Virus record (IMG/VR): IMGVR_UViG_3300025864_000004
Location: 1-50,950 of that record
Reading direction: 5' to 3' (one strand)
Origin: a virus
Length of the DNA: 50,950 nucleotides
This document shows, piece by piece, positions 3,101-35,137 of the stretch. Made by a program: the position numbers and the translations under genes. Below the pieces are notes generated by a model. It saw only the letters and a program-made list of their open reading frames with translations, was not told where the DNA came from and ran no database searches. Position 1 is the stretch's first letter. The number at the start of each line of letters is the position of its first letter.

Positions 3101-5136
3101 AGATATTGGTACCAGAGACCGCGACCCTCACTCATCTTCCATGCCTTCGCGGCAGTCTCCAACATACTAGCATAGCCGTTGATGTGGTCCACAGCGTCCT
3201 GGTTGGGAAAGGTCTTGCCTGTCGGGTCGAGAGTTCCCACTAACTCCCCAGTAGACGGGTCCTTCGTGACCATGGGCACCCCAGGTTTGCCCGGCTTATA
3301 ATTAGGGTCAATCTTCAGGAGACTATCGATTCGATATGCAGCCGCAGCACGATTTGCTTCGGCGATGGTCCAAGAAACCCCCGCATTCAACTTCGCGAAC
3401 TGCTCACTCACGCCACCCTTGGTGCCCTTGATTATGGGACCGACTACGGGAGCTGTCTCGGGGGCGTTCCACATCCAATCCGCAGCCTTGCCGACGCCCT
3501 TGGCGTCGTAGGACATCCCCTTGGTAACGAAGTCGCCCAGCTTGCCCGAGGTGGCGATAAGGTGCCACACGACCTCGGGAGGGGCCTTCAGTGGGGCAAA
3601 GAAACGTGAGATGGCGGTACTCTTGCTAAGGCCCTGAGCCCCCGCCTGTTCGGCCTGCGGGAGGTTGACCGTGCCCCACTTCTTCGCATACCAGAGCGCA
3701 AACCCCGATTCGCTCACGCCAACCGGACGGGCCATCATGGAAGACTTATAGACGAAGGTGAGGAACTGGTCGTCGCCTATGCCCCCCATGTCCTGCGCGA
3801 GCTTCCCGGGTTCAGTCCCACCACCCTGTACGTTGGTGCGCTCCAATATCGCGCTGGCCTCACCCTTCTCATGGGGGTCTTTAGAGAACATTGCTGCCGC
3901 AAGGTTGGAGCCGTAGACGAACTGGTTGACCACGGAGACGTAGGGTAGGGCGGAGCCGATGGTGGGAATCACTCCGCTCTTGATCGGGGCGTACCCCCTC
4001 TCGGCAAGCGCCTTCTCTACTTCCTTCTTCTGCGCTTCGTCACGGCTCATGAACCAATCAAGATCACGAGCGCCCTGATAGACAGCCTCTGGCTTCTTGC
4101 CGAGGTACTCGTCCGGGTTCCACGCCACGTCCCTCGATCTTTCCATGGCCCCAGCAAATTTCTCGGGGAGATGCTTTATTTGGTTCCAAACTCCACCCGT
4201 ACCGAAACTCCAGAAGCCGGGATGGTTGCCCGTATCCGGGGGTGGAGCCTTGGAGAGGTCAGCCTTCTTGAACATGAGGTCAGCCTGTTCGCCCGTGAGT
4301 GCGATTGGCTGGTCTGTGGGGGGCGGAACTTTCGACGGATACTTATGCGTCTCCTGCATAAACTTCATCCACGCATCTGCACCGGGGGTACCAACTCCTG
4401 CCTGTAGTACATAGGGGGATGTGACTGAGGGATCAAGGTCGGTCATGGAGAGTCCGGCAGACAGTAGGTCTACCATCTTCTGCGGGCCGGGGATCGTGCC
4501 GGTAGCCTGCCACTGGCCGAGTGCTATGTCTCTGACTGGAGTGTCTGCGGGGGGCACGGGTAGGTCGGAAGTCCGCGGGGTAGGCGGAGCGGTGGCGGGG
4601 GTGGCCTGGTCCAAGGCTGTGGGCAACGGAGGGGCGGAGAGGATGTCGCTGCCACCGTTCTGAGCGTAGGAGTCGAGTACGCCCTGATACTTCTTGGTCG
4701 GCTCGGCCACGTTCTGCTCGTGAAAAGCGTGGTAGTCGAGTCCACCGGCACCGATGTTGACCTTCGCGCCGCTGGCATTCGGGACTGTCATGCCACCATG
4801 CTTCTTCAGTCCGTCAATCCAAGTTCGGGCGGTGTCGATAGCCTTCGACATCTCTTTGGCTTCCGGCTTCTTAGTCGTCCACGACAGGCGTTGCATGTAC
4901 TGAACGTCTTTGATAGTGAGCGACTTGCCCGCTTGTGACTTTTTCGCGATAGCCTTGAAGGGGGCGATGCTATTGACATGACCAGATACGCGCGGAGCCG
5001 CGTGCGGAGCGGCGGGTCGTGCTGCGGGCTGCTTCTTTGGAGGTATTCTCGCCCAGCCGTCCAGAGGAACCGCAGGCTTCTTCTTTTTCTTTGGGGGTCG
5101 GTACGCCTGTGGACCATGCGGACCAATAATCGCCAT
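1..5136 (-). CDS. Giant virion protein with ADP-ribosyltransferase-like domain (N-terminal part; continues at 50823)
   Basis: I read the whole stretch in frame and found no stop. Joined to 48583-50823 it makes one gene of 7377 nt, 2458 residues. The ATG at 5134-5136 follows the stop of the preceding gene by one base. The first ~60 residues are rich in Pro, Lys and Ala. Around residues 1255-1330 is a KLYHGT motif (Tyr1259, His1260) followed by NWTNDYKEAMEYARR and VVYESTFGEV, the pattern of ADP-ribosyltransferase (ART) domains in phage polyvalent proteins. The gene lies between portal and scaffold, where SPP1-like phages keep the MuF protein, which often carries toxin or ART tails. It is therefore probably a capsid-internal, injected protein. 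The role is inferred; the ART call is from motifs only. The window edge splits the gene, which is not truncated in the genome. Confidence 0.8.
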   Translation of the reverse strand, partial: MAIIGPHGPQAYRPPKKKKKPAVPLDGWARIPPKKQPAARPAAPHAAPRVSGHVNSIAPFKAIAKKSQAGKSLTIKDVQYMQRLSWTTKKPEAKEMSKAIDTARTWIDGLKKHGGMTVPNASGAKVNIGAGGLDYHAFHEQNVAEPTKKYQGVLDSYAQNGGSDILSAPPLPTALDQATPATAPPTPRTSDLPVPPADTPVRDIALGQWQATGTIPGPQKMVDLLSAGLSMTDLDPSVTSPYVLQAGVGTPGADAWMKFMQETHKYPSKVPPPTDQPIALTGEQADLMFKKADLSKAPPPDTGNHPGFWSFGTGGVWNQIKHLPEKFAGAMERSRDVAWNPDEYLGKKPEAVYQGARDLDWFMSRDEAQKKEVEKALAERGYAPIKSGVIPTIGSALPYVSVVNQFVYGSNLAAAMFSKDPHEKGEASAILERTNVQGGGTEPGKLAQDMGGIGDDQFLTFVYKSSMMARPVGVSESGFALWYAKKWGTVNLPQAEQAGAQGLSKSTAISRFFAPLKAPPEVVWHLIATSGKLGDFVTKGMSYDAKGVGKAADWMWNAPETAPVVGPIIKGTKGGVSEQFAKLNAGVSWTIAEANRAAAAYRIDSLLKIDPNYKPGKPGVPMVTKDPSTGELVGTLDPTGKTFPNQDAVDHINGYASMLETAAKAWKMSEGRGLWYQYLSDIGVDPAKHEYVAAWGQFGIDTGLTFPLQAGSAAIVGGVLKSTPALAALKAFGVNSHAEILTAATSPSRIMELYNVTPGAAKELAGINNVDEMLLKLNGPDKFGAKYFDPDTHFTARSVAQNLRVKMTGDTKLAPWYRAFMAPLPEGVFDTVVDTEHQVLGTLRYAGLDSKVAHDFVDGMIKARLDAADFPEMAVRSYLTHKKTGFNALIEKHFRSQPVSAEFFKGASVTAPGVMLKGPGLMSDVGTALRGARASLKNAHVPKEGAATKLDELNSFLRRFRGKGVGVENRDTRVGYLLHPSDTIAGRLEEGSLGLPVELTEPVLVKVRAATKVMEDIDKRLVGADAKTAASLGAKRVSAQTSIDAAIHELNIMDPQVVGMPTAATEAQFGKTFSPDYTPTELAIFSGGKGMQDWAILQKRLHLTDINSAFKRMWLSRMGTMFTIIGSDEMLRGMLNGVNPVGGIKGLKKLPGFESTMSTDAAEAVLRSPQTSANILDITDFGRATDWGEIGPDAADVTTRNLGVHQSLKTFNAETSMPVKDWLEVRDAAYADLVADAERTKIPVTVKPPKVDSSGGKLYHGTTSAEAPGGAVSAGKNWTNDYKEAMEYARRKAVKDGSSPVVYESTFGEVTGRKAAGDIGPESGRVVALNKSDLTPPKAGDVAPGVGVDQQIADLQQEYLSRYDTLSRDASAHQDWKDYRTPADLTKGQSRKDLIARINEMGGIDIKSVAGHVEEDMPLAGKQGIFGGTLKSRRTKNVSVRELQERPQPVDIDVMAELLNDEFFGLELSPDDLVAILGKRSTRPAVTLPAAEVKASMDRMSEIEAEIARLKAGSPKESVPLSSLDKTKPAPSPILSERDQIALHKAKASAMADAELGRMMHNDPRYIGGIGADGRKLTGLLPTRNPDAFDPLLLSQGLDNKPWIKSIQDEYNRKIHAMMSHNVTERHLRTGKIDPKDLKSATVQNIYGPVQYSIERNPAMNALTYLPKKFSDTVLGTLGHMATHLKKQEFGMFFDERMRTLDGIEMPRLEKL

Positions 5137-10011: not shown

Positions 10012-10187
10012 TTCTGCTCACGTTCTAGGAGGTGATTGTGGACTATAGCCACTAGCCAAAGAGCACGCTCAATCTGAGAACTATCCTCTGCCCCGATGTC
10101 CAGTGTCGGATCGTCCAGAATCCTGTTCAGTGCCCAGACGATCTCTTGAGTGTCGTTACTCCAGATGGTCGGCCCCCTTGTGAGCAA
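10008..10187 (-). CDS. Tiny helical protein after terS, 59 aa
   Basis: An open frame runs to a TGA that overlaps the GTG of the next gene. The only standard start is TTG at 10187, giving 59 residues and a 32-nt overlap with terS. An AAGGGGG sequence lies before codon 8, so the true start could be later and non-standard. The protein is acidic and predicted helical (an RALWLVAIVHNHLL helix). The family is unknown. Confidence 0.5.
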   Translation of the reverse strand: MLTRGPTIWSNDTQEIVWALNRILDDPTLDIGAEDSSQIERALWLVAIVHNHLLEREQK

Positions 10188-10815
10188 GGTCTAAGGCGTC
10201 GATACGGTCGCGTTCACGTTCAAGAGAGGCCCTGTAGTCGTCCATTAGCTTCTGACGAGCAATGGGGTCCTGTACGGATTCGAGCAGCTTGTCGGACTTG
10301 ATGTCGGGCTCCTCCCCCATTTTCGACAGGGTGATCCCAGCGTCGAGCACCACTTTGACCATTTTCAGGAGTTGTTCGGTACTCAGTGAGTGAGGATAGT
10401 ACTTGACCCGCTCATATAGGCTGCGGAGTGCCTCTCCGCCCACTTCTCGCCACAAATGGTGCTCGTAGTCACGGCGAAAGAGGGGATCGGTGCGACGAAT
10501 CCGATAAAGTTCGACCTGTTCCCAGAAATAGTCGTCGTTATCGAGGTATTTGTTGAACATTTCGCAACTTTGACCGCGATAACCAGCGCGGCGCATGACT
10601 TCCGTCTTGTTCGGCACGATATTGCCATCTGAGTCGTGCTGTTTCCGCGTCCCAGGACCGTAGACCCACTCATCTGCTTCCATGCAGACGTAGGCCGCAG
10701 CAGCCATTTCGGTAGAAACCTTCTTCTTTTCCCGTTTCAGTGCAGTCGGCTTCCCAATAGGCCGCTTTGCTGGGGTCGGGTAATCGTCAGAGGTATTGGT
10801 GAGTTCTCTAGGCAT
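10156..10815 (-). CDS. terS: Probable terminase small subunit (TerS), 219 aa
   Basis: First gene of the late unit, just upstream of terL. The protein is highly charged and helical, with an N-terminal Lys/Arg-rich tail, a central region that could hold a DNA-binding HTH (around residues 50-80), and a long helical, acidic/basic C-terminus. This fits small terminase proteins, which recognise pac or cos and regulate TerL. The promoter -10 ends only 8 nt before the ATG, so the mRNA would be leaderless or nearly so. The call is mainly from position and general features. Confidence 0.65.
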   Translation of the reverse strand: MPRELTNTSDDYPTPAKRPIGKPTALKREKKKVSTEMAAAAYVCMEADEWVYGPGTRKQHDSDGNIVPNKTEVMRRAGYRGQSCEMFNKYLDNDDYFWEQVELYRIRRTDPLFRRDYEHHLWREVGGEALRSLYERVKYYPHSLSTEQLLKMVKVVLDAGITLSKMGEEPDIKSDKLLESVQDPIARQKLMDDYRASLERERDRIDALDLAHKGADHLE

Positions 10816-10823
10816 CTGTAAGC

Positions 10824-10857
10824 ATTATACCACGAATATTTGTTTAGTCTACCATCC
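10824..10857 (-). promoter_or_regulatory. Promoter for terS/terL (GGATGGTAG box + extended -10)
   Basis: The minus strand has GGATGGTAG (complement of 10849-10857), exactly 19 nt, then TATAAT (complement of 10824-10829) preceded by CGTGG. It has both the box shared by six other promoters and the extended -10 of the late promoters. The expected start point is ~10817, leaving 1-2 nt before the terS ATG. Confidence 0.8.
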
Positions 10858-10871
10858 TTCAGCCAGAACAC

Positions 10872-10905
10872 GGATGGTTGCGCTTTTCCAAGAGTTTGCT
10901 ATACT
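10872..10905 (+). promoter_or_regulatory. Promoter of plus-strand left operon
   Basis: GGATGGTTG (10872-10880), 19 nt, then TATACT (10900-10905); TTGCGC at 10878-10883 can serve as a -35 with a 16-nt spacer. It is back-to-back with the terS promoter: the two boxes are mirror copies separated by 14 nt, so one regulator dimer could touch both. Confidence 0.8.
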
Positions 10906-10937
10906 GCTCTTAGGTAAGAGCCCCTTAAGAGCTTAAG
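10906..10937. promoter_or_regulatory. Candidate operator: inverted repeats at the transcription start
   Basis: GCTCTTA (10906-10912), GG, TAAGAGC (10915-10921) is a perfect 7-bp inverted repeat starting right after the -10. CTTAAGAGCTTAAG follows at 10924-10937 and reuses the TTAAGAG half-site. The position over the start site suits a repressor operator or a hairpin at the mRNA 5' end. No binding protein is identified. Confidence 0.5.
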
Positions 10938-10954
10938 CATTACAGGAGGTATGT

Positions 10955-11314
10955 ATGAAGTTCTTTTCACCCCTTTCTATTTCCCGGTTACGCTATGCAG
11001 TCTTCTTCTTACTCTCCTTACCGCTGCTCTTGCTCTTGCTTAAGTACTTAATGGAGGGTTTTGCACGCGCGCGCGTTCCGGCGGCAGCGTCAACGAAGGA
11101 CTGGGAGACCCTGGACGATCTGAAGGACGATCTGAAGTTGCAGCGCGCCAGACGGGCCATGGAAAAGGTGAGGCTCGACAGTTCAGCCTTCAGGACGGTG
11201 GCGGCGCTTACCGGGAAGGAAGACAGAACACACCCCCTGTCGGAGGTGCTCTGGGATGCGGGATACGACATGTGCGCCAAAAAACCAGCCACCTGGGCCA
11301 TGTGGTTCACATGA
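10955..11314 (+). CDS. Membrane-anchored small protein, 119 aa
   Basis: The ATG follows a strong SD sequence (AGGAGGT). Residues about 11-32 form one hydrophobic membrane helix (VFFLLSLPLLLLLLKYLM) preceded by Arg. The rest is a charged helical domain (DDLKDDLKLQRARRAMEK), presumably cytoplasmic or periplasmic. It is the first gene of the plus-strand operon behind the 10872 promoter. Superinfection exclusion or envelope interaction would be typical for such a protein in this place, but that is speculation; no family is recognised. Confidence 0.75.
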   Translation: MKFFSPLSISRLRYAVFFLLSLPLLLLLLKYLMEGFARARVPAAASTKDWETLDDLKDDLKLQRARRAMEKVRLDSSAFRTVAALTGKEDRTHPLSEVLWDAGYDMCAKKPATWAMWFT

Positions 11315-11382
11315 CCGTCCTCTACGTCATCCTCGCCCTACTCGTGACTATTTTCATCTTGGGGGTTGTGAACATTGACTAG
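11311..11382 (+). CDS. Single-membrane-segment peptide, 23 aa
   Basis: ATG overlaps the stop of the upstream gene (ATGA). Almost the whole peptide is a hydrophobic helix (VLYVILALLVTIFILGVV). It resembles the 23-aa peptide encoded at 32735-32806. Its end overlaps the start of the next gene. It is too short for family assignment; coupling and composition argue that it is real. Confidence 0.55.
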   Translation: MTVLYVILALLVTIFILGVVNID

Positions 11383-11659
11383 TTATCGGGACCGCTGTGA
11401 AGCCGAGTCGCAGACTGGGTACCCCGCCTTCCCCTGTCCGCGTTGTGGTTACGACGACTGGTGGGTCCATCGTCCATACCGGAAGTCAAAGCGCGACCGT
11501 CCACCACTGTGGACAGCGGAATGTTGGCACTGTCACGTCATCGAGACGGCCCACCACGTCGATGGTGGTTGGCTCTACATGCACCAGTACAGCAAGCATC
11601 CCGGCTCTTTGCACGACTTCGTACAGGAACACTCAAAATATCTTAGGGAGACGACATGA
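11375..11659 (+). CDS. Zinc-ribbon protein, 94 aa
   Basis: The TTG start lies inside the end of the 23-aa gene, with GGGGGT upstream as a possible SD sequence. Two Cys pairs, CPRC (near residue 21) and CWHC (near residue 50), form a four-Cys zinc ribbon with aromatic and basic residues between. The C-terminal part is rich in His and Tyr. It is one of more than twenty small zinc-binding proteins in this genome. The function is unknown; nucleic-acid binding is possible. Confidence 0.65.
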   Translation: MTSYRDRCEAESQTGYPAFPCPRCGYDDWWVHRPYRKSKRDRPPLWTAECWHCHVIETAHHVDGGWLYMHQYSKHPGSLHDFVQEHSKYLRETT

Positions 11660-11889
11660 AACACAAAGACCGCGTTCGCATAAAGTTTGGCAAGACCGAC
11701 CTCGACAATCTGGCACAAGTCATATACGACGAGTTTCACGGTCACGACGCATTCTCCACCGGGTACGGCCCGCCCTGGAAACTCTATTCCAAGGAGAAGC
11801 ACGACGTTGTGGTTGAGGAGTTCCGCACTGCTGCCGAAGCCGCAATCTTAGCCTTCAACGACGGCGACCTGTACGAATACGACTTTTGA
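11656..11889 (+). CDS. Hypothetical protein, 77 aa
   Basis: The ATG overlaps the previous stop (ATGA); a GGGAG SD sequence precedes it. It is a small mixed acidic/basic protein ending EYDF with no recognised domain. It is coupled to the downstream phosphoesterase through a TTGA overlap. Confidence 0.7.
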   Translation: MKHKDRVRIKFGKTDLDNLAQVIYDEFHGHDAFSTGYGPPWKLYSKEKHDVVVEEFRTAAEAAILAFNDGDLYEYDF

Positions 11890-12853: not shown

Positions 12854-12922
12854 CTACTGAACCTCGACAACGCCAAGCGCGCCGGGGTGGCTGCTATTGT
12901 GTCCACAAAGTGTTCAGTCGGT
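12769..12922. other. attP: Candidate attP region with integrase-type repeats
   Basis: GTGTTCAGTCGGT occurs at 12769-12781 and again at 12910-12922, and the core GTGTTCAG also at 12780-12787 and 12805-12812. Repeated short sites next to int are typical arm- or core-type integrase sites. The right copy is inside the last codons of int and the left ones inside the HNH gene end. The exact crossover core cannot be identified without the host site. Confidence 0.5.
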
Positions 12923-13898
12923 TAACAGCGTCATCCTGCATGGAGGGGATTACATGGCAATAGATCGCGAGTGTGGTGCCGATGTGGGCGTGCCCGAGGC
13001 GTTCCTGTATGACGCGAGGGTTGACGCCTGCGGCCATGAGCATTGTGGCGTGACTGTGCCGCAGTCCATGAAAAGTGATTGGGATGCCAAGGTTTCTTGC
13101 AAGTATAGTGAACTGGTGCGTGACGGTTTCAGGAGCCATGGGAACCACAGGCTCGTCTGGCACCCCCCGATCACCGAGATAGCGGAGGGTGATGAGAGGG
13201 AAGGGTACGCGACGTGGCCTGCCGGTCTTGGGGGGCTTCCATATTCCCCGCCAAAGGGACCCAGAAACCGTTATGACGCTTGGGCCTACATCACGCCACC
13301 GCAGCCCGCAAACCTCCCCGCGTCTGAGACCACATGTGGCTGCAAGGACGATAGCCCTCTGAAGAGCACCCTCGCTACCATCAATGAGACTCTGAATGTC
13401 ATCGCGGCCAATAACCGCCATATCGAACGGTTGATACTTCGGTGCAGTTACCTTATCGAGCGGATTGAAGGCGAATACCTCTCGCTTGACCCCATCTCTG
13501 AATGAGGCCCGCATAACGTGATGATGACTACTCAGAGTTGCCGTGCTGTACTGCTTCTTGCTCGCGTAGTAGTGCTCAAAGACGGTGGGGGTCAGGTCCC
13601 TGAGTTTGAAGTGTCCAAGGTCGGGTTTGAGATGCTTGTTGACGACGGAGCGGTAAACCGACTCAGTAGCGGGAGCAAGACGCAGTGACGCAATCCATTC
13701 ATCCAGCCAATCAGCAAACAACATATCGGAGGTGTGATGCTTATTAGAAAGCTCACGCGTAATCCATTCGTTGGCCTCAAACTTGGTCCGAAAGGTCTTC
13801 TTCTCCCGAATCGGTACCCGCTTGCCATCGTCCATCCGGGAACCAAGGTAAAGACGAGCCTCCCACTTCCCACCGAACTTTCTGACCGAACTACCCAT
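12894..13898 (-). CDS. int: Tyrosine-family integrase, 334 aa
   Basis: Site-specific recombinase that inserts the phage DNA at the host attachment site. An AP2-like arm-binding start (residues 1-50), a SAM-like core-binding domain (~58-112) and a catalytic domain follow each other. The catalytic residues are visible: Arg192 in CGLRRGE, His277 and Arg280 in HGLRH, His303 in LGHAHIG, and Tyr313 in the AIYCHV motif. The ATG at 13898 is chosen because AGGAGGAG lies just upstream; an ATG at 13937 is in frame but overlaps the divergent promoter. The gene stands alone on the minus strand among plus-strand genes. Confidence 0.95.
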   Translation of the reverse strand: MGSSVRKFGGKWEARLYLGSRMDDGKRVPIREKKTFRTKFEANEWITRELSNKHHTSDMLFADWLDEWIASLRLAPATESVYRSVVNKHLKPDLGHFKLRDLTPTVFEHYYASKKQYSTATLSSHHHVMRASFRDGVKREVFAFNPLDKVTAPKYQPFDMAVIGRDDIQSLIDGSEGALQRAIVLAATCGLRRGEVCGLRWRDVGPSVITVSGSLWRGIWKPPKTGRPRRVPFPLITLRYLGDRGVPDEPVVPMAPETVTHQFTILARNLGIPITFHGLRHSHATMLMAAGVNPRVIQERLGHAHIGTTLAIYCHVIPSMQDDAVNRLNTLWTQ

Positions 13899-13911
13899 GA
13901 CTCCTCCTAGT

Positions 13912-13945
13912 GGATAGTGGCGTTGTTTCCGACTCATGGTATAAT
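13912..13945 (+). promoter_or_regulatory. Promoter (GGATAGTGG box + TATAAT)
   Basis: GGATAGTGG (13912-13920), 19 nt, TATAAT (13940-13945). The last 16 bases, CGACTCATGGTATAAT, are identical to those of the promoter at 14488. It drives the two genes that follow and lies head-to-head with int. Confidence 0.8.
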
Positions 13946-14459: not shown

Positions 14460-14493
14460 AGATGGCAGCGTTATATCCGACTCATGGTATAAT
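14460..14493 (+). promoter_or_regulatory. Promoter (AGATGGCAG box + TATAAT)
   Basis: AGATGGCAG (14460-14468), 19 nt, TATAAT (14488-14493), with GCGTTATATCCGACTCATGG between the two. It is nearly a duplicate of the promoter at 13912. It drives the 86-aa zinc-ribbon gene. Confidence 0.78.
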
Positions 14494-14924: not shown

Positions 14925-15335
14925 TCACGAGGGTACGGGTAGCCTTGAGCCGTTTTCCTCGCTCAACACACTACCTTTCACAACTCCCTCACCCGCAACT
15001 ATGGTGGCGTGCAAGTTGTCTGCCCCACCACCTACTCGACCACGCCTAGCCTTGCCCGCACAACTCATGGAGCAGTACTTGGAGCCCTGCTTCACCTGTT
15101 TCATAGTCAGCTTGTTGAAGCAGCCCGATCTTGCACAGATGGTGTCGGAGTAGGGTCCCTTGCGGAGTATTGGCCTCTTATTTCCAGTTAACGACACATT
15201 ATCGACCGGCGGGGTAATAACTTCTGGTGATGACGCTTCCGGGCTAACCTTAACGACGGGCTGCCCAGCAAGTACGGTTAAGGCATTCCTCACCTCTTCC
15301 GCAGTTCCTCTGAGATGAATGACTACTTGTTCCAC
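14925..15335 (-). CDS. Zinc-finger protein on the opposite strand, 136 aa
   Basis: The GTG at 15335 follows AGGGAGA, a good SD sequence; the frame stays open further upstream but into the divergent promoter. The N-terminal ~25 residues look like a short alpha/beta unit (VVIHLRGTAEEVRNALTVL), followed by a Pro/Val linker. A treble-clef-like zinc motif follows: CARSGC near residue 65 and KYCSMSC near 85, then a basic patch (GKARRGRVGG). It is the only minus-strand gene besides int in this block and is divergent from the 15357 promoter, so a regulatory role (lysogeny switch) is possible but unproven. Confidence 0.65.
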   Translation of the reverse strand: MEQVVIHLRGTAEEVRNALTVLAGQPVVKVSPEASSPEVITPPVDNVSLTGNKRPILRKGPYSDTICARSGCFNKLTMKQVKQGSKYCSMSCAGKARRGRVGGGADNLHATIVAGEGVVKGSVLSEENGSRLPVPS

Positions 15336-15356: not shown

Positions 15357-15390
15357 GGATGGTAGAGAGTTGAGTGACTCATGGTACAAT
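15357..15390 (+). promoter_or_regulatory. Promoter (GGATGGTAG box + TACAAT)
   Basis: GGATGGTAG (15357-15365), 19 nt ending GACTCATGG, then TACAAT (15385-15390). It belongs to the same family as the promoters at 13912 and 14460. It overlaps the region just upstream of the divergent 136-aa gene. Confidence 0.8.
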
Positions 15391-16077: not shown

Positions 16078-16136
16078 AAAAGGACCACCCTTCCTACCAC
16101 TGGGTTGCTCCTAAAGAGTAGGGGGGGTCTGAGTGG

Positions 16137-16349
16137 ATGCTGAGTTGCCGGGGCTGTGGCCGCATCCTCGGGGCTGTGGCTTTGCCCATGTTCCCCGGGG
16201 GGAGGGGCGGACCGCCAGCTAAAGCACCCCGCCTCTGTTGTTGCGTGTGTAATCACACAGAATATGTGCATGTGCAGGTAGATCGTGCCCGCGCTTGCTG
16301 GTGGGAGCCCCCCCTCCCTAATGCATTAGTGCAATGTATGTATGCATAG
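16137..16349 (+). CDS. Possible zinc-ribbon protein, 70 aa
   Basis: The ATG follows a GGGGGGT stretch. CRGCGRILG near the start and CCCVCNH near residue 35 form a plausible four-Cys ribbon like its neighbours. The last ~20 residues look unstructured and their DNA contains a 12-bp palindrome, CTAATGCATTAG (16318-16329). The frame could be chance within a regulatory region; the Cys pattern is the only positive evidence. Confidence 0.4.
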   Translation: MLSCRGCGRILGAVALPMFPGGRGGPPAKAPRLCCCVCNHTEYVHVQVDRARACWWEPPLPNALVQCMYA

Positions 16350-16435
16350 TATTGTGTGCATGTGTGTGATATGCATGTGCTATTGTGTGCATGTATGTGT
16401 GCTTAGTTAGGCAAGCCTAACGCATATGGTTAGGC
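16350..16435. repeat. TG-rich direct repeats and inverted repeats (candidate control/origin site)
   Basis: TATTGTGTGCATGTGTGTG (16350-16368) and TATTGTGTGCATGTATGTG (16381-16399) are 19-base direct repeats with one difference. GTTAGGC-AA-GCCTAAC (16406-16421) is a perfect 7-bp inverted repeat, and GTTAGGC recurs at 16429-16435. No gene is visible. Such clusters of palindromes and repeats are typical of origins or regulator sites. Confidence 0.6.
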
Positions 16436-16792
16436 ACACCTATGCATCACGCCCATGCCCTATGCTACTGCCTTCCCTGCTACATACGGGACAAGGGTAG
16501 TAAGAGTGGGTGCGACTCGGGCAAGCGCATGCAAGATCGCCCTATATGGAAGCCCTATATAAGGCCCCTCTATAGAAGGCCCCTATAGGAAGGCCCTATA
16601 TAAAGGCCCCTATATGGAAGCCTTTCTATAGAAGACTTTCCCTGTCCCGATTCGCTTTCTGAGTCATTCCTTAACAATCCCGTTTCTGCTAGGCTCGACT
16701 TATGCAAGATTGGATTTGCTTATACAGTCTAGGAGATGTACTATGTGGGCAGACTTAAGCTAAAGAAATCAAACGCAAACAGGAGGAAGATC
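16436..16792. other. Non-coding stretch upstream of plus-strand genes
   Basis: I see no convincing gene between 16350 and 16792. This part holds the seven-copy repeat (16539-16635) and a run with TTTGCTTATAC near 16717-16727 that may be the -10 of a promoter for the gene at 16793, though no good -35 or GGATGG box is present. Confidence 0.6.
16539..16635. repeat. Seven-copy TATA-centred tandem repeat (iteron-like)
   Basis: Seven units of 12-16 bp run head to tail: GCCCTATATGGAA, GCCCTATATAAG, GCCCCTCTATAGAAG, GCCCCTATAGGAAG, GCCCTATATAAAG, GCCCCTATATGGAA, GCCTTTCTATAGAAG. Each has a GGCC-C start, a self-complementary TATA core and a GAAG end. Length and core vary, unlike a CRISPR. Best guess: an iteron array for a replication initiator or a partition/regulator site. 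Confidence 0.7.
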
Positions 16793-21030: not shown

Positions 21031-21290
21031 GCGCGCTCGACGAACTGCGGGATGCGATGGTCGGCCTCGCTCTCGACCTCACGCAGTCACACAGCGATGC
21101 GGGGTACGCAGAGCGCTTTGGCTGCAACCGCTGCATCGCCCTGCTCGACGCCTTCGAGGCCGTGCATCCGGGGCTGGTGGATGGGACGTGGAAGTGTTCG
21201 TGCGGCTCCGTGTATAAGCAGTACAGAGCCCTGTCCCAGGACGGTAGCGGGTTCACTACTTGCTACGCTTGCGCCAAGGAGTCGAAATGA
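21027..21290 (+). CDS. Zinc-ribbon protein, 87 aa
   Basis: ATGA overlap. A helical N-terminal part contains CNRC (near residue 31) and is followed by CSCGSVYKQY and CYACAKESK near the end. The middle (DAFEAVHPGLVDGTWKCSCG) resembles phage zinc-ribbon proteins with a leading helix. The function is unknown. Confidence 0.68.
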   Translation: MSALDELRDAMVGLALDLTQSHSDAGYAERFGCNRCIALLDAFEAVHPGLVDGTWKCSCGSVYKQYRALSQDGSGFTTCYACAKESK

Positions 21291-21703
21291 GGGAATCGCT
21301 ATCGTCCACGCGGGGCAAGATAGGCGGGAGCAGGTACAGCCCGCTAACGGCTACTTCGATCGCACGGGGCGGCGCAAACGTCCAGTATGTGCCCATCGAG
21401 CGCCGCTGCGCTTGCGGGAACCTGCTAAGCGGCTACAACCTAGAGCTATACTGTGAGGTGTGCCTGAAGAAGCGGAGCCTTGCTGAGACGGCACCCAGGC
21501 CCAAGGGTGGCTCCATCGTGCCGGAGGTGCGGGAGCGCCTGCTCAGTCACCCCGACTTCACCGACTACTATGGATACTATCGGAGTCTGGGCTGGTCACA
21601 CAAAAATGTGGACTGCGCCATGAGCGCTGCTAGGCGGTATTTCGCCCGAAGAGGTGTGATGCTGATAAGCCAGCGGGGCAAGGGGTACAGGCTTGACACC
21701 TAG
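21287..21703 (+). CDS. Zinc ribbon plus winged-helix-like protein, 138 aa
   Basis: The ATG overlaps the previous stop and has AAGGAG upstream. After a basic start, CACGN near residue 45 and CEVC near 60 form a zinc knuckle. The C-terminal half has helices (VPEVRERLLSH, KNVDCAMSAARRYFARRG) and an end VMLISQRGKGYRLD that looks like a wing. It might bind DNA, perhaps as an early regulator. No named family is recognised. Confidence 0.65.
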   Translation: MRESLSSTRGKIGGSRYSPLTATSIARGGANVQYVPIERRCACGNLLSGYNLELYCEVCLKKRSLAETAPRPKGGSIVPEVRERLLSHPDFTDYYGYYRSLGWSHKNVDCAMSAARRYFARRGVMLISQRGKGYRLDT

Positions 21704-21756: not shown

Positions 21757-22044
21757 ATGCCTAGGCCGAAGGTAACGGTAGACGATGTACCCGTTGAGCA
21801 ATACTACAGCGGGGCCGTGATCTGTGAGACGTTCGGATTTGGTGCCGTGTACCTATCGAAGTTGAAGCGAGAGCCAGGGTTTCCTTATCTACCGCTGCCC
21901 GGTGGAGAGGCACGCTATCGCATCAGCGAGCTTGAGGAATGGTTTCGAGCACACGGTAGAGATGGCGAAGGTAAGAGGCACGCGGCGCAGGCTGCCCGCG
22001 CCAAGGTTGCGCGCGCCGCAATCGGGAAGAACGGCAAGAGATAG
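21757..22044 (+). CDS. Excisionase/MerR-like helix-turn-helix protein, 95 aa
   Basis: A good SD sequence (AAGGGAGG) precedes the ATG. SGAVICETFGFGAVYLSKLK looks like the first helices of an HTH_17-type domain, and GEARYRISELEEWFRAHG is the characteristic recognition strand and C-terminal helix of excisionase/MerR-like proteins. A basic Ala/Lys/Arg tail follows. It could be the recombination directionality factor for int or a transcription regulator; it is the clearest DNA-binding fold in the plus-strand block. Confidence 0.68.
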   Translation: MPRPKVTVDDVPVEQYYSGAVICETFGFGAVYLSKLKREPGFPYLPLPGGEARYRISELEEWFRAHGRDGEGKRHAAQAARAKVARAAIGKNGKR

Positions 22045-29127: not shown

Positions 29128-29745
29128 TCAAAATGGTATGTCGTCATCGTCGCTAGCAGCAGGGGCCTGCATATCAGCGAGGCTCACAGGGGCTTGGCTG
29201 AGAACACTTCCATCGCCTGCTCCAGTAGTATCTGGAAAGGTGGCGGCCGGAGTCATGTCTGCCCACGCCAGCACCTTGTCACAGTAGGAAAGGAAGTCGT
29301 CTTCTGTCGGCGCGTTGCCGGCGTAAAGCGTGGCTACCGCAGAAGCGATCTCCTGACGTTGAATCTGCACGGGGGTACGGAACTGACCCTCCTTGCTGAA
29401 GGACGCGCTGCCGCCGGTGCTGCTGCCGCTGCTGTCGCCCGTCCACTTCTCCTTCTGCGGGAACGTGTAGGCTTCTCCGGGCTGGGCGGGCACGGCCTCA
29501 TTGATGAACTTCATCATGGTGCCGGGATGGTTGGTGGACTCAACCACGTCGTAGCTGATCTTGATGCGAGCACCGATGGTCATAATGGCGGCGCAGTTGA
29601 CGTTGCCCTGCTTCGCATTGTAGTTCCACGTGAACTGACTACCGCAAGTGAGCTTTACCTTGGTCGGGGGGTTCCCGCCCTGAGTTATCTGCACGTTCTC
29701 AACGCTGATGACGGCTATGGCGTTCTTAACGGGCTGAAAGTCCAT
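29128..29745 (-). CDS. ssb: Single-stranded DNA-binding protein, 205 aa
   Basis: Coats ssDNA at the fork. The C-terminus ends DDDDIPF, the acidic tip by which bacterial SSBs recruit partner proteins. The N-terminal ~110 residues are strand-rich (KNAIAVISVENVQITQGG, KVKLTCGSQFTWNYN), consistent with an OB fold, followed by a Gly/Ser linker. The start is the ATG at 29745 behind AAAGGAG of the leader motif. First gene of the replication operon, with its own promoter and a leader hairpin. Confidence 0.82.
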   Translation of the reverse strand: MDFQPVKNAIAVISVENVQITQGGNPPTKVKLTCGSQFTWNYNAKQGNVNCAAIMTIGARIKISYDVVESTNHPGTMMKFINEAVPAQPGEAYTFPQKEKWTGDSSGSSTGGSASFSKEGQFRTPVQIQRQEIASAVATLYAGNAPTEDDFLSYCDKVLAWADMTPAATFPDTTGAGDGSVLSQAPVSLADMQAPAASDDDDIPF

Positions 29746-29749
29746 CTCT

Positions 29750-29787
29750 CTCCTTTGGCTGGGAAAGCCCGCCGTAGCGGGCCTCCC
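29750..29787 (-). promoter_or_regulatory. ssb leader: hairpin plus CCCAGCCAAAGGAG motif
   Basis: On the minus strand GCCCGC-TACG-GCGGGC (complement of 29767-29782), flanked by GGGA/TCCC, forms a stable hairpin followed by TTTCCC. It is immediately followed by CCCAGCCAAAGGAG (complement of 29750-29763), which ends 4 nt before the ATG. The hairpin could attenuate transcription or mark the start. Confidence 0.65.
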
Positions 29788-29804
29788 GTTAGTCTTCTGT
29801 AAGC

Positions 29805-29838
29805 ATCCTAGCACACTAAGTGATGTCCGCTACCATCC
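29805..29838 (-). promoter_or_regulatory. Promoter of ssb-dnaB operon
   Basis: GGATGGTAG (complement of 29830-29838), exactly 19 nt, TAGGAT (complement of 29805-29810). The first transcribed bases, ATGCTTACAGA, are the same as downstream of the terS -10. It should drive the whole replication operon down to 22239. Confidence 0.8.
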
Positions 29839-31448: not shown

Positions 31449-31642
31449 CAGTCGAAGTCGCGACCAGCGACCATCTTCTCGGGCCGTGGCTTTCTACAAG
31501 CCGGGTCCTGATGGTCAGTAAAGAACGCACACTCCATAGGGCTGGGCTCCCCCCAAAGCTCGCGATACCCACGCATGGCAAGCACTATGAACGCGCACTT
31601 GTGGTGGTGGGCGCAGCACTGCTCACAGTGGATTAAGCTCAC
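31448..31642 (-). CDS. Cys/His-rich protein, 64 aa
   Basis: GTG overlaps the endolysin stop (GTGA). HCEQCCAHHHKC is a dense Cys/His cluster, and two more Cys lie in the C-terminal half (MECAFF, DPACR). Probably a zinc protein. Its TGA overlaps the phosphoesterase ATG. Confidence 0.62.
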   Translation of the reverse strand: MSLIHCEQCCAHHHKCAFIVLAMRGYRELWGEPSPMECAFFTDHQDPACRKPRPEKMVAGRDFD

Positions 31643-32316
31643 TGCGTGATCTTGCCGAAGTGATAGAACTTTCCGGGACACGCCGTGCTGTTCCCGCTCA
31701 TGTTCTTGTGCTGCCAGTCAGGTCGTCCGTACTTCTTGTTCAGGTAGCGGTGGACTGCCTGCGCGGCCTTGAGCTGCGCGGTCGGCATGTCATCGTGTGC
31801 CTCGTAGTTCCCCTCAAGACAGACGCCGATGCAATCGTTGTGGCCGAGGCAGTGAGCGCCCATGGTGTTCTCGGGGCGACCGGCGTAGACCTTGCCGTCG
31901 CGGCGGATGTAAAGGGTGTAGGCGATGCCGCGGTCTCCAATCTTCACGTGGTAGGCGTGAATCTCCTCGGGGCTACCAAATCCGGCGGCGTGATGCCAGA
32001 CGGTGCCCGGAGGACCGCCCCGCCGCGCGACCGGCGCACCGTTCCATTTGTAGTCCGGATGGATGATGTGGAGCGGAGGAAGCAGGTTCGGGAACAACTG
32101 GGCCACCAGCTCCTTCGTCTTCTGCGTCGACTGCAACACCGGCTTGCCGTGCTTGTGCATGTGTCCAGAGACACGCCATGCTAGCGTGCGCTTCCCCGTG
32201 CCCCACACGGGGACTAGCGTACTCACCTTGGGTACGGCTATCGTCCCCCGCGTACACCCAAGGTGGTTCTCGGCATAGATCAGCATCTTCTTCGTTGTGG
32301 CAATGTTCGTCGGCAC
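31639..32316 (-). CDS. Endolysin: N-acetylmuramoyl-L-alanine amidase, 225 aa
   Basis: Cleaves the sugar-peptide bond of peptidoglycan for host lysis. The C-terminal ~130 residues match Amidase_2/PGRP: VWHHAAG (zinc His), IAYTLYIRRDGKVYAGRPE, GAHCLGHN, IGVCLEGNY and NSTACPGKF (zinc Cys). The N-terminal ~85 residues may bind the wall. The GTG at 32316 is chosen because GAGGGAGG lies 6 nt upstream; an ATG at 32322 is too close to it. It follows an HNH gene that splits it from the holin candidates. Confidence 0.88.
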   Translation of the reverse strand: MPTNIATTKKMLIYAENHLGCTRGTIAVPKVSTLVPVWGTGKRTLAWRVSGHMHKHGKPVLQSTQKTKELVAQLFPNLLPPLHIIHPDYKWNGAPVARRGGPPGTVWHHAAGFGSPEEIHAYHVKIGDRGIAYTLYIRRDGKVYAGRPENTMGAHCLGHNDCIGVCLEGNYEAHDDMPTAQLKAAQAVHRYLNKKYGRPDWQHKNMSGNSTACPGKFYHFGKITQ

Positions 32317-32329
32317 AAGCATCCTCCCT

Positions 32330-32647
32330 CTAGTTTGTGTTGACATTCAGAATTTTGTGGCGAGCCTTGTGACACGGCCTGCACAGGACAACGCAAGCCT
32401 CCAGCTCCTCTTCGAGTGAATCGATGGAGAAGTGATACATCCGGGATATGTTGTATCTCTTGGTGGACGGATCGACATGGTGATGTTCCAGCAAGCCCTC
32501 GTGCGTCTCGCAGTCCTCGCAGCCGCTGACAGTTCTCAGTATCTGGAGCCATTCGGCGAACTCTGCGTACTCCCCCTTGTCCTCCTCCCGGTGTTCTACG
32601 CGATAGGCTCTACTGTAAGCACGATGCACTACGCTACACTGTGGCAA
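32330..32647 (-). CDS. HNH endonuclease-like protein, 105 aa
   Basis: TTG with GGAGGGAAG upstream. GCEDCETHEG, LEHHHVDPSTKRYNISRMY and VVLCRPCHKARH make an HNH core whose sequence closely follows the protein at 12407, so the two are recent paralogues or related homing genes. It lies between the lysis genes directly behind a promoter. Confidence 0.82.
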   Translation of the reverse strand: MPQCSVVHRAYSRAYRVEHREEDKGEYAEFAEWLQILRTVSGCEDCETHEGLLEHHHVDPSTKRYNISRMYHFSIDSLEEELEACVVLCRPCHKARHKILNVNTN

Positions 32648-32683: not shown

Positions 32684-32717
32684 ATTGTAGCATGAAAAAG
32701 GGCCGCGTCAACCATCC
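32684..32717 (-). promoter_or_regulatory. Promoter of the lysis-side unit (GGATGGTTG box + TACAAT)
   Basis: GGATGGTTG (complement of 32709-32717), 19 nt ending TCATGC, TACAAT (complement of 32684-32689). TTGACG lies 16 nt before the -10, a fair -35. Downstream bases AAGGCTAGGG resemble those after the 15385 -10. Confidence 0.78.
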
Positions 32718-33173: not shown

Positions 33174-35137
33174 GACTGCTCCCGAACGACGATCTTGGCC
33201 AAGCCGCTCGGACCCTCGGAGGAGGAGGTGGGCGCAGGCGTGAACTCCACTGTCTCGATTGCTCCTTGGTAGACACCGGCGAACCTATCCTCAAAGGTGG
33301 CCCGCTCGTTGGCGGTGGCGTAGAGGAACCTCAGCGCCGTCTCTGGGTCCCCCCCCCACTTACCAGCGTTCGCCCCGCTCCTGCAATCAAGAGAGTAGGT
33401 GTGCTTCTTGTTCTTTACGAAGTTCCAGATGACGTTGATACCGTGAACAAGCGGAGAGATAGCCTTGGTGTAGTCAGGGGTCATCCCCATAGTCGTCTCG
33501 ATGGAGTAGCCCTGTTGGTCAATCGGGAAGCGGGTTTCCTGCGGACTGTAGGCTTGTCCATTGGCTGTACCGTACACACCGTCTATCAGCCAGCTCATAG
33601 GTCTGACGGTAGCCCCGTCTGGAAGTACGTCGTGCGACACTGAGACGTACCTGAAGTCCTTCTTCATTGAGCCGGTGTGGAATGTGGTCGGTGACTGCGT
33701 GATCCAGCCGATGTCGTTGTATCCACCAGCGGTTAGCGCCCAGCCGACACTGTGGTTGTAGAGAACCAGGCCCGCCGTCCCGGCAGTCGTCACGTTGACG
33801 GGGATAGAAAAGGTCGTATCGCTTACCCTCGTTGCCACGTATGAGCCGTTGATGAGGGGCACGGAGCCCACGCTTCCAGCTATCACTACCACCTGAGCCG
33901 TGGCGGCTGGAATGCCGTGGGCTGCTGACGTGGTGACAATGGTTGGGTTAGCCAGAGTGTTGCCCGTGATGGTGAGAATCATGGCGTCCTCACCTTTGGA
34001 GTACGGAGCAAATAGCCTTCCCGCTCGATAGGCGAGTGAGGGGCGGAAGATACTCGTGCTTAGTGATGGAGAAGTCGCGACAGCATCGGCAGTCTTATAG
34101 CGTATGATAACGACGCCCGAGCCACCCGCACCACCGGCGTACTGCGCACCCGTCCCGCCACCCCCACCTCCGGTATTGATGATTCCTGGGTTTCCCCAAC
34201 CCTCATACGGACTTCTACCCGCACCCCCGCCGTGCCGTGCCCCACCACCGGAACCCACGCCGAACATACCGCCGCCGCCGCCGCCTGCGTAACCCACCAT
34301 TTGACCGGACATACCGCTGACAAATCCAGTCCCACCGTCACCAGCTTTTCGCGGAGTGGTGGAGAATGTGCCATTGGGGCTGTAGGCGGTCCCATTCGCA
34401 TTTGTTGCATACGCCCTAACGTAGTAAAGCGTGGATGGTTCCAGTCCGGTCTGAGTAAATGAGAACTCTCCAACCCCCCCCGCACCCCCAACGGTGCTTG
34501 CCCCCGAGTTCGGAAATTTAGCGACACAAAAACCCACGGCTGAAATAGCCGATCCCCCATCGCCCCCAACATTTCCCGCCAACGAAACAGTCGTAGATGT
34601 CGCTCCAGAAAAGGTGACATTTACTACATTCGTCGGAACAGTTGTTCCATTGGGAGCCGGAGGAGGGGGAGGAGCTGGAGCGACGTAGGGCTCATACGTT
34701 ATGCTGACCGTTATCTGGTCAATATGGACGTTGACCGCTGCTCCTGTAGTTCTGCCGACATCCACCCCGAGGCTTAGATAGCCCGGATCATTCGCCTGTG
34801 CGGGGGTACACAGGGTCCTGTAAGCGCCATCACTTACCCATCTTCCCGATACGGCACCCGTATCGTAGGCGATGGTCGACCCTTGGAGACTAAGGTATAT
34901 GTAACTTCCCGTATTACTTCCCCACCAATAAGCAGCCCCAGAAATCCCAGTAATGGTGGCGTTGAGGGGTATGGAGAAGCCGAAGTTGGAAGAGATCGCA
35001 GTGTTCGCTGCATCACCAGCCCGAAGATTGCAGGTAGCGAGATAGGAGTCTCTATTCTGAAGGAAACTTGGGCTGAAGTTGGTCCACCGTGAACCGGGAA
35101 TTGTCGAACCAGCGGTCCTAGTTACCGTTACTGACAT
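33170..35137 (-). CDS. Tail fibre/spike protein, 655 aa (module + C-terminal half of Gly-rich domain)
   Basis: Residues 1-150 are a beta-rich module related to the N-terminus of the 723-aa protein. A Pro linker (153-163) and a complete Fn3-like domain (~168-262, with TGLEPSTLYYVRAYATNANG) follow. Residues 276-348 are the second half of a phage Gly-rich fibre domain, ending GGAGGSGVVIIRYK; its first half is at the end of the upstream 584-aa protein. The remaining ~300 residues are a tail domain resembling virion components that contact the adaptor. The start overlaps the upstream stop (TAATG). Probably host recognition. Confidence 0.75.
   Translation of the reverse strand: MSVTVTRTAGSTIPGSRWTNFSPSFLQNRDSYLATCNLRAGDAANTAISSNFGFSIPLNATITGISGAAYWWGSNTGSYIYLSLQGSTIAYDTGAVSGRWVSDGAYRTLCTPAQANDPGYLSLGVDVGRTTGAAVNVHIDQITVSITYEPYVAPAPPPPPAPNGTTVPTNVVNVTFSGATSTTVSLAGNVGGDGGSAISAVGFCVAKFPNSGASTVGGAGGVGEFSFTQTGLEPSTLYYVRAYATNANGTAYSPNGTFSTTPRKAGDGGTGFVSGMSGQMVGYAGGGGGGMFGVGSGGGARHGGGAGRSPYEGWGNPGIINTGGGGGGTGAQYAGGAGGSGVVIIRYKTADAVATSPSLSTSIFRPSLAYRAGRLFAPYSKGEDAMILTITGNTLANPTIVTTSAAHGIPAATAQVVVIAGSVGSVPLINGSYVATRVSDTTFSIPVNVTTAGTAGLVLYNHSVGWALTAGGYNDIGWITQSPTTFHTGSMKKDFRYVSVSHDVLPDGATVRPMSWLIDGVYGTANGQAYSPQETRFPIDQQGYSIETTMGMTPDYTKAISPLVHGINVIWNFVKNKKHTYSLDCRSGANAGKWGGDPETALRFLYATANERATFEDRFAGVYQGAIETVEFTPAPTSSSEGPSGLAKIVVREQS

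Follow-up and report, generated by a model that had tools for sequence, protein, structure and literature searches.

The back-to-back control region at positions 10816-10954 of a 50,950-nt virus sequence (IMGVR_UViG_3300025864_000004, positions 1-50,950; hereafter the window, or G000 in genome comparisons) belongs to a regulon of promoters that carry one box, GGATGGTWG, in a fixed register upstream of the -10 element, and in related phages another box occupies the same place at orthologous promoters. With a probability of roughly 0.47, these boxes are operators of a phage-specific immunity repressor. The first-pass annotation had considered the interval as the place where a lytic/lysogenic or early/late switch could act. 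Phage-specific control of back-to-back promoters gains support from the recurrence of the box within the window and from two relatives with other boxes, whereas the picture of a single switch is too local, the region being one of at least five box promoters. Judged by position, a likelier seat of the lysis/lysogeny decision is the region beside the integrase, with the promoter at 15357 and the gene at 14925 (Table 1).

Table 1. Coordinates of promoter elements, genes and candidate regulators in the window.
Feature	Positions	Strand	Remarks
Presumed terminase small subunit gene, terS	10156-10815	-	219 aa; directly upstream of terL
Extended -10 of terS promoter, TGGTATAAT	10824-10832	-	coordinates re-checked
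terS promoter box, GGATGGTAG	10849-10857	-	21 nt between GGATGGT and -10; about -40 to -32
Plus-strand promoter box, GGATGGTTG	10872-10880	+	same register as terS box
Extended -10 of plus-strand promoter, TGCTATACT	10897-10905	+	coordinates re-checked
Two short inverted repeats, GCTCTTAGGTAAGAGC and CTTAAGAGCTTAAG	10906-10937		over predicted plus-strand start; possible local operator
119-aa ORF, one hydrophobic stretch	10955-11314	+	downstream of plus-strand promoter
Integrase gene	12894-13937	-	phrog_1, E 5.9e-65
Two-mismatch box GGATAGTGG, same register, consensus TGGTATAAT	13912-13945	+	36-aa zinc-ribbon-like ORF
Two-mismatch box AGATGGCAG, same register, consensus TGGTATAAT	14460-14493	+	86-aa ORF 14523, sub-threshold zinc-ribbon match
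Candidate immunity repressor gene, Cys-rich, 136 aa	14925-15335	-	by position only: beside 15357 promoter, integrase direction
Class A promoter, perfect box	15357-15390	+	ahead of ORF 15421, start of rightward early genes
Candidate box-binding regulator gene, Cys-rich N-part and winged-helix C-domain	21287-21703	+	near end of early genes
Class A promoter, perfect box, weak -10 TAGGAT	29805-29838	-	SSB-like gene 29128-29814; ortholog G001 13441-
Class A promoter, perfect box	32684-32717	-	ahead of HNH ORF and amidase endolysin gene 31639-32346

A box in register with extended -10 elements

The interval separates the presumed terS gene on the minus strand from the plus-strand ORF 10955-11314, and its sequence is best explained by head-to-head sigma-70-type extended -10 promoters, which would serve the presumed terS-terL packaging genes on one side and a small membrane- or lysis-type ORF on the other. 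The elements described in the first-pass annotation were confirmed: mirror GGATGG boxes lie 14 nt apart (CCATCC at 10852-10857, GGATGG at 10872-10877, gap 10858-10871), divergent -10 hexamers flank them (TATAAT at 10829-10824 on the minus strand with TGG in front, TATACT at 10900-10905 on the plus strand with TGC in front) and perfect inverted repeats follow (GCTCTTA-GG-TAAGAGC at 10906-10921, CTTAAG-AG-CTTAAG at 10924-10937).

The GGATGG boxes are part of the longer word GGATGGTWG, and at both promoters exactly 21 nt separate GGATGGT from the -10 hexamer. This places the box at about -40 to -32, where its last three bases coincide with the first half of the -35 position. Seven copies of GGATGGTWG were counted in the window against 0.74 expected, and five of them (10872+, 10857-, 15357+, 29838- and 32717-) have TGnTAnnnT in this register (binomial 3e-10, scored on TAnnnT alone), leaving only two perfect boxes (4220+ and 29525+) with no -10 in register. 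The perfect-box promoters precede the presumed terS, the plus-strand ORF, the early operon, an SSB-like gene whose product ends in DDDIPF, and the lysis genes. Two further sites with degenerate boxes keep the same register (Table 1).

Unlike the mirror boxes taken alone, the tie between the box and the -10 geometry is far beyond chance. When 7-mers were ranked by how often they recur at one constant spacing (8-44 nt) ahead of -10-like sites, the commonest word in the window was GGATGGT, at distance 21 and four sites; the same search returned GAGGGTA/GGAGGGT at five sites in the relative G001 and ACGAGTG at three sites in the relative G007. Across 1000 dinucleotide shuffles per genome the maxima were 3 (G000), 3 (G001) and 2 (G007), the maximum of 3 for G000 being reached in two shuffles, and the observed count was reached in 0/1000 shuffles of each genome. 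Counted from the boxes, TGnTAnnnT occurs at one offset in 5/7 cases in G000 (21), 5/9 in G001 (21) and 3/7 in G007 (19), and at none of the other offsets from 8 to 40 scanned in these three genomes. As a control, viral contigs were scanned for divergent extended -10 pairs; at least 120 stretches matched, and the 121 pairs among the matches listed were inspected for words of at least 6 nt shared in register. Such words were found in 12 pairs among these matches, 10 being ordinary TTGACA-like -35s and G007 being one of the other two.

Some further observations concern individual sites. The promoters at 13912-13945, 14460-14493 and 15357-15390 have the flank GACTCATGGTA(T/C)AAT in common, as if duplicated. 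An HNH-endonuclease ORF (32330-32647) resembling a homing insertion separates the lysis promoter from the amidase endolysin gene, which in G001 directly follows its promoter. At 21239-21269 (+), just before the 21287 gene, GGACGGTAG differs from the box at one position and is spaced 18 nt, not 21, from TGCTACGCT; we take it as a chance occurrence, nothing alike preceding the 21287 homologs in G001, G002, G007 and G010.

A second class of TGGTATAAT-like promoters, located at portal-side, capsid and other structural-region genes, carries no box. Four of these are found in the window (8049-, 46105-, 48577- and 38287-), with counterparts in the relatives. After the presumed capsid promoter (window 46105-, G001 27488-, G002 18965-, G007 18987+), a similar leader follows in all four phages, possibly a conserved leader element.

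Orthologous promoters with other boxes

Relatives were gathered from viral-contig scans with terL (G001-G007) and via the candidate regulators (G008-G011). In G001, five promoters have the word GGAGGGTAR (GGAGGGTAG or GGAGGGTAA) in this register. Those of terS, the divergent gene, lysis and SSB are orthologous to perfect-box sites of the window; the fifth (48260+), with GGAGGGTAG, is the ortholog of the degenerate site at 13912+. Throughout the four pairs, the G000 boxes read GGATGG and the G001 boxes GGAGGG. Box base 4 differs at 5/5 sites, accompanied by one or two more changed bases at 4/5, and in the 16 nt behind the box only 4-9 positions match between the two phages. In G007, the word ACGAGTG ends 19 nt before the -10 at three promoters, those of terS, its divergent partner and lysis, and this word and the 9-bp box of G000 and G001 share the same end point; at its SSB promoter, ACAAGTG lies 20 nt before TATTGT, one nt further from the -10.

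Four orthologous promoter pairs have changed their box together, and a third phage has yet another box at the corresponding places. One phage-specific reader is the simplest account of such a concerted change, in which nature has in effect exchanged the recognition signal of an entire regulon, making the change of specificity directly testable on a few promoters with two or three candidate proteins. A search of the open-licence literature, limited in depth, returned no description of the GGATGGTWG box or of a leaderless terS.

Among the additional relatives, G008 repeats the SSB and lysis sites of the window and G011 those of G007. G010, whose box is known from one promoter only, carries the SSB box of G001 inside a stretch of ~100 nt identical to G001, possibly the result of a recent exchange, and G009 ends short of the box-promoter genes. 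In G002, no box rose above random controls despite the same genes: 3/5 sites share a word (≤1 mismatch), and at least three sites with a shared word occurred in 79/300 random sets. Likewise, no 7-mer at a fixed distance exceeded the shuffles (30 each) in G004, G005 and the fragments G003 and G006, the count of 2 in G004 coming from its contig ends. Phage records searched with terL gave no match and those searched with DnaB and capsid for a host gave distant matches only; two scans of genome contigs for relatives returned none.

Repressor, activator or promoter ornament

We infer protein binding, repression, the identity of the reader, heteroimmunity and all transcription starts along the following lines. 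One phage-encoded DNA-binding protein would probably read all boxes, at packaging, early, replication (SSB) and lysis promoters. In the prophage, the box-bound immunity repressor would block sigma region 4 and hold the lytic promoters off; upon its loss, the box promoters would fire and terS would be translated from a leaderless mRNA. Related phages that changed box and reader together would then be heteroimmune.

A -35 is not required for an extended -10 promoter to fire, nor usually is an activator, which favors repression. It is further favored by the presence of an integrase, which points to a temperate lifestyle, together with the assignment of box promoters to early, replication, lysis and packaging genes. 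The repressor reading also draws on immunity systems in which the consensus of the binding site differs between related heteroimmune phages (PMC6550527), and asymmetric monomer sites of a phage immunity repressor are described in PMC9283540. The Cluster A mycobacteriophage (L5-type) repressor sites of these two sources resemble the boxes in being short, asymmetric and oriented, in occurring at several places of a temperate phage and in having a consensus that differs between related phages, those of the L5 type being heteroimmune. They differ in other respects. Stoperators would have most sites off promoters, where they stop elongation, whereas the sites of the window are mostly at promoters in one register; the window has five perfect and two degenerate promoter sites, not more than twenty; and neither a two-domain HTH repressor of the L5 kind nor any repressor-named family was matched by the ORFs scanned against Pfam and PHROGs, a set that covers part of the ORFs, the early ones least.

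Against repression, the exact register and orientation would suit an activator in contact with RNA polymerase no less well, although the overlap of the box with the -35 position could equally impose the register on a repressor. G002 shows no box despite having the same genes, and no repeated box was seen in G003-G006. In addition, the four structural promoters have no box, so a repressor acting on the box alone would leave them on in the lysogen unless they are otherwise controlled.

These points lend weight to a tentative second reading that rivals the first closely. In it, a phage-encoded activator would recognize the box and dock next to the -35 contact or substitute for it. Early promoters with a consensus -10 would produce the activator, whereupon replication, lysis and packaging genes would be switched on. 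Register and orientation are indeed fixed at every box promoter, and the -35s are poor, with TAG or TAA and not TTG at -34 to -32 in 8/10 box sites of G000 and G001. The -10 is non-consensus at 9/10 box promoters of these two phages and TATAAT at 7/7 of their boxless promoters, a comparison biased by the picking of the latter by eye for a consensus-like -10 ahead of structural genes. Non-consensus -10s suggest compensation at the box promoters, with the reservation that boxless promoters can only be spotted by a strong -10, and in G007 the three perfect-box promoters and 3/4 of the picked boxless ones have the identical -10, TATACT, which speaks against activation. The two early promoters with degenerate boxes have the consensus TGGTATAAT, and the modeled winged-helix protein encoded at 21287, near the end of the early genes, would be a candidate activator. 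An activator would usually be dispensable at extended -10 promoters, and a change of box at all sites would be unexpected between phages with 93% identical terL.

Precedent for activation is offered by the T4 middle promoters, which have a -10 but, instead of a -35, a MotA box centred at -30 (PMC2988021 and PMC6755090). The likeness extends to the fixed register upstream of an often extended -10, in place of a proper -35, and to targets that include replication genes. The MotA box, however, lies 12±1 nt from the -10 and the box of G000, G001 and G007 ends 19 nt away; moreover, no match to MotA or AsiA was found among the ORFs scanned against Pfam and PHROGs, and the box changes between close relatives.

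A more specific and rather doubtful proposal is a register-locked, sigma-adjacent regulator of an undescribed family, the 9-bp specificity of which was replaced across a regulon of 5-7 promoters between sister phages. It would represent an activator or a dual activator/repressor system, not a classical repressor, with box and reader evolving as a matched pair. We consider it very unlikely that the box is a lineage-specific promoter ornament, e.g., a -35 variant preferred by the sigma factor of the host or a sequence that was inherited but has no dedicated binder. The box does abut the -35 position, and TTG is present in 2/5 sites of the window, but orthologous promoters hold the register while carrying different boxes, the sequence behind the box has diverged and the box has not, and the same phage has boxless structural-gene promoters.

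The mirror pair, candidate readers and the terS leader

The mirror boxes might instead form one paired operator, bound by a dimer or a bridging protein, for a local switch between terS and the plus operon. The dyad in the window is exact, and that of G001 is longer (TCTACCCTCC/GGAGGGTAGA). In addition, the divergent -10 hexamers are 70 (G000), 71 (G001), 59 (G002), 59 (G007) and 48 nt (G006) apart. These distances differ by roughly whole turns of the helix (Rayleigh p about 0.01, for five related genomes and a period chosen afterwards), suggestive of room for cooperation of both promoters on one DNA face. This result adds weight to a paired operator and takes slightly from the repressor reading. 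Nevertheless, such an operator is improbable. Half-sites of a palindromic dimer operator would keep a constant spacing, whereas the gap is 14 nt in G000, 15 nt in G001 and 7 nt in G007 and the distance of each box to its own -10 remains constant, which argues for a separate box at each promoter instead of one palindrome. Elsewhere in the window, box promoters have a single box. Moreover, shuffling of 139-nt regions yields a 7-bp inverted repeat with arms 5-30 nt apart in 13% of cases, so that the mirror boxes alone are unremarkable, and CCATCC-N14-GGATGG with up to two mismatches is expected 2.8 times in the window and was found once. The variable arm gap and the single boxes elsewhere likewise disfavor a single dyad operator and set the window apart from the operators of the lambda/434 type, with which it shares divergent promoters with mirror motifs and an operator sequence that differs between related phages.

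The inverted repeats at 10906-10937 could be a local operator of the window phage only. Chance would yield one repeat with arms of at least 7 at P 0.039 and two with arms of at least 6 at P 0.009, and TAAGAGC occurs nowhere else in the window. In G001, G002, G006 and G007, the divergent leaders contained no inverted repeat with arms of at least 6 over their first 60 nt, which speaks against a conserved operator. An RNA element in the plus leader was likewise rejected (z 0.28, no Rfam match in 10300-11700).

Three small genes had been put forward in the first-pass annotation as sources of DNA-binding proteins. The 21287 product is a candidate winged-helix reader of the box based on its structural model (pLDDT about 85-92 over residues 81-138), which matches the N-domain of B. 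subtilis PurR with Z 9.1 and rmsd 1.8 over 65 aligned residues; Foldseek alone gave a best E of 0.17, and Pfam and PHROG gave no match. Its third helix differs between phages. For the 14925 product, the model was uninformative (mean pLDDT 42.7) and no family match was obtained. It contains a zinc-knuckle-like segment (C..GC.NKLT.KQV..G..YC..SCAG) that occurs once in G000 and G001 and apparently twice in G002 and G007. The excisionase-like 21757-22044 product, with a weak AlpA/RdfS-type sequence match (E about 0.1), is disfavored as a binder: G010 and G007 share nearly the same helix (SANYLGKLKRL), yet have different boxes.

A second feature that even distant relatives have in common is the arrangement at terS, an apparently leaderless, separately promoted gene. 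Homologs of terS, which had no PHROG match and is adjacent to a terL matching phrog_38, are found in six relatives, with proteins down to 44% identity in the comparison. The distance from the -10 to the terS ATG is 8, 7, 8, 6, 6, 7 and 6 nt in G000, G001, G002, G003, G004, G006 and G007, i.e., 6-8 nt in 7/7 genomes with the region, the contig of G005 beginning inside terL. With a start ~7 nt after the -10, the predicted leader comprises 0-2 nt, and the mRNA is probably leaderless. Leaderless phage mRNAs exist, e.g., lambda cI from PRM; as in that case, the terS ATG coincides with the predicted transcript start or is no more than 1-2 nt away from it, the difference being that here a presumed terminase small subunit gene is concerned and the arrangement is kept in 7/7 genomes.

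On the divergent side, the counterpart of ORF 10955 in G001 is a 35-aa hydrophobic ORF, and those in G002 and G007 have a hydrophobic N-terminus and a sub-threshold SLT match. In the latter two, the gene holds two long overlapping frames (34221-34718 and 34228-34659 in G002, 3992-4507 and 4045-4500 in G007), both with a hydrophobic start and one with the sub-threshold SLT match. The word AAGAGCAAGAGC recurs near the terS/divergent and lysis promoters (window 11037-, G001 43575- and 16083-, G002 34192- and 10243+, G007 29339-) and is also found away from promoters in several genomes. Finally, the long stretch at 16080-16750 of the window holds no convincing gene and contains TGTGTGCATG-like and CCTATATGGAAGGCC-like repeats; it is possibly an origin or attachment region, and a similar-looking stretch is located at the contig start of G001.
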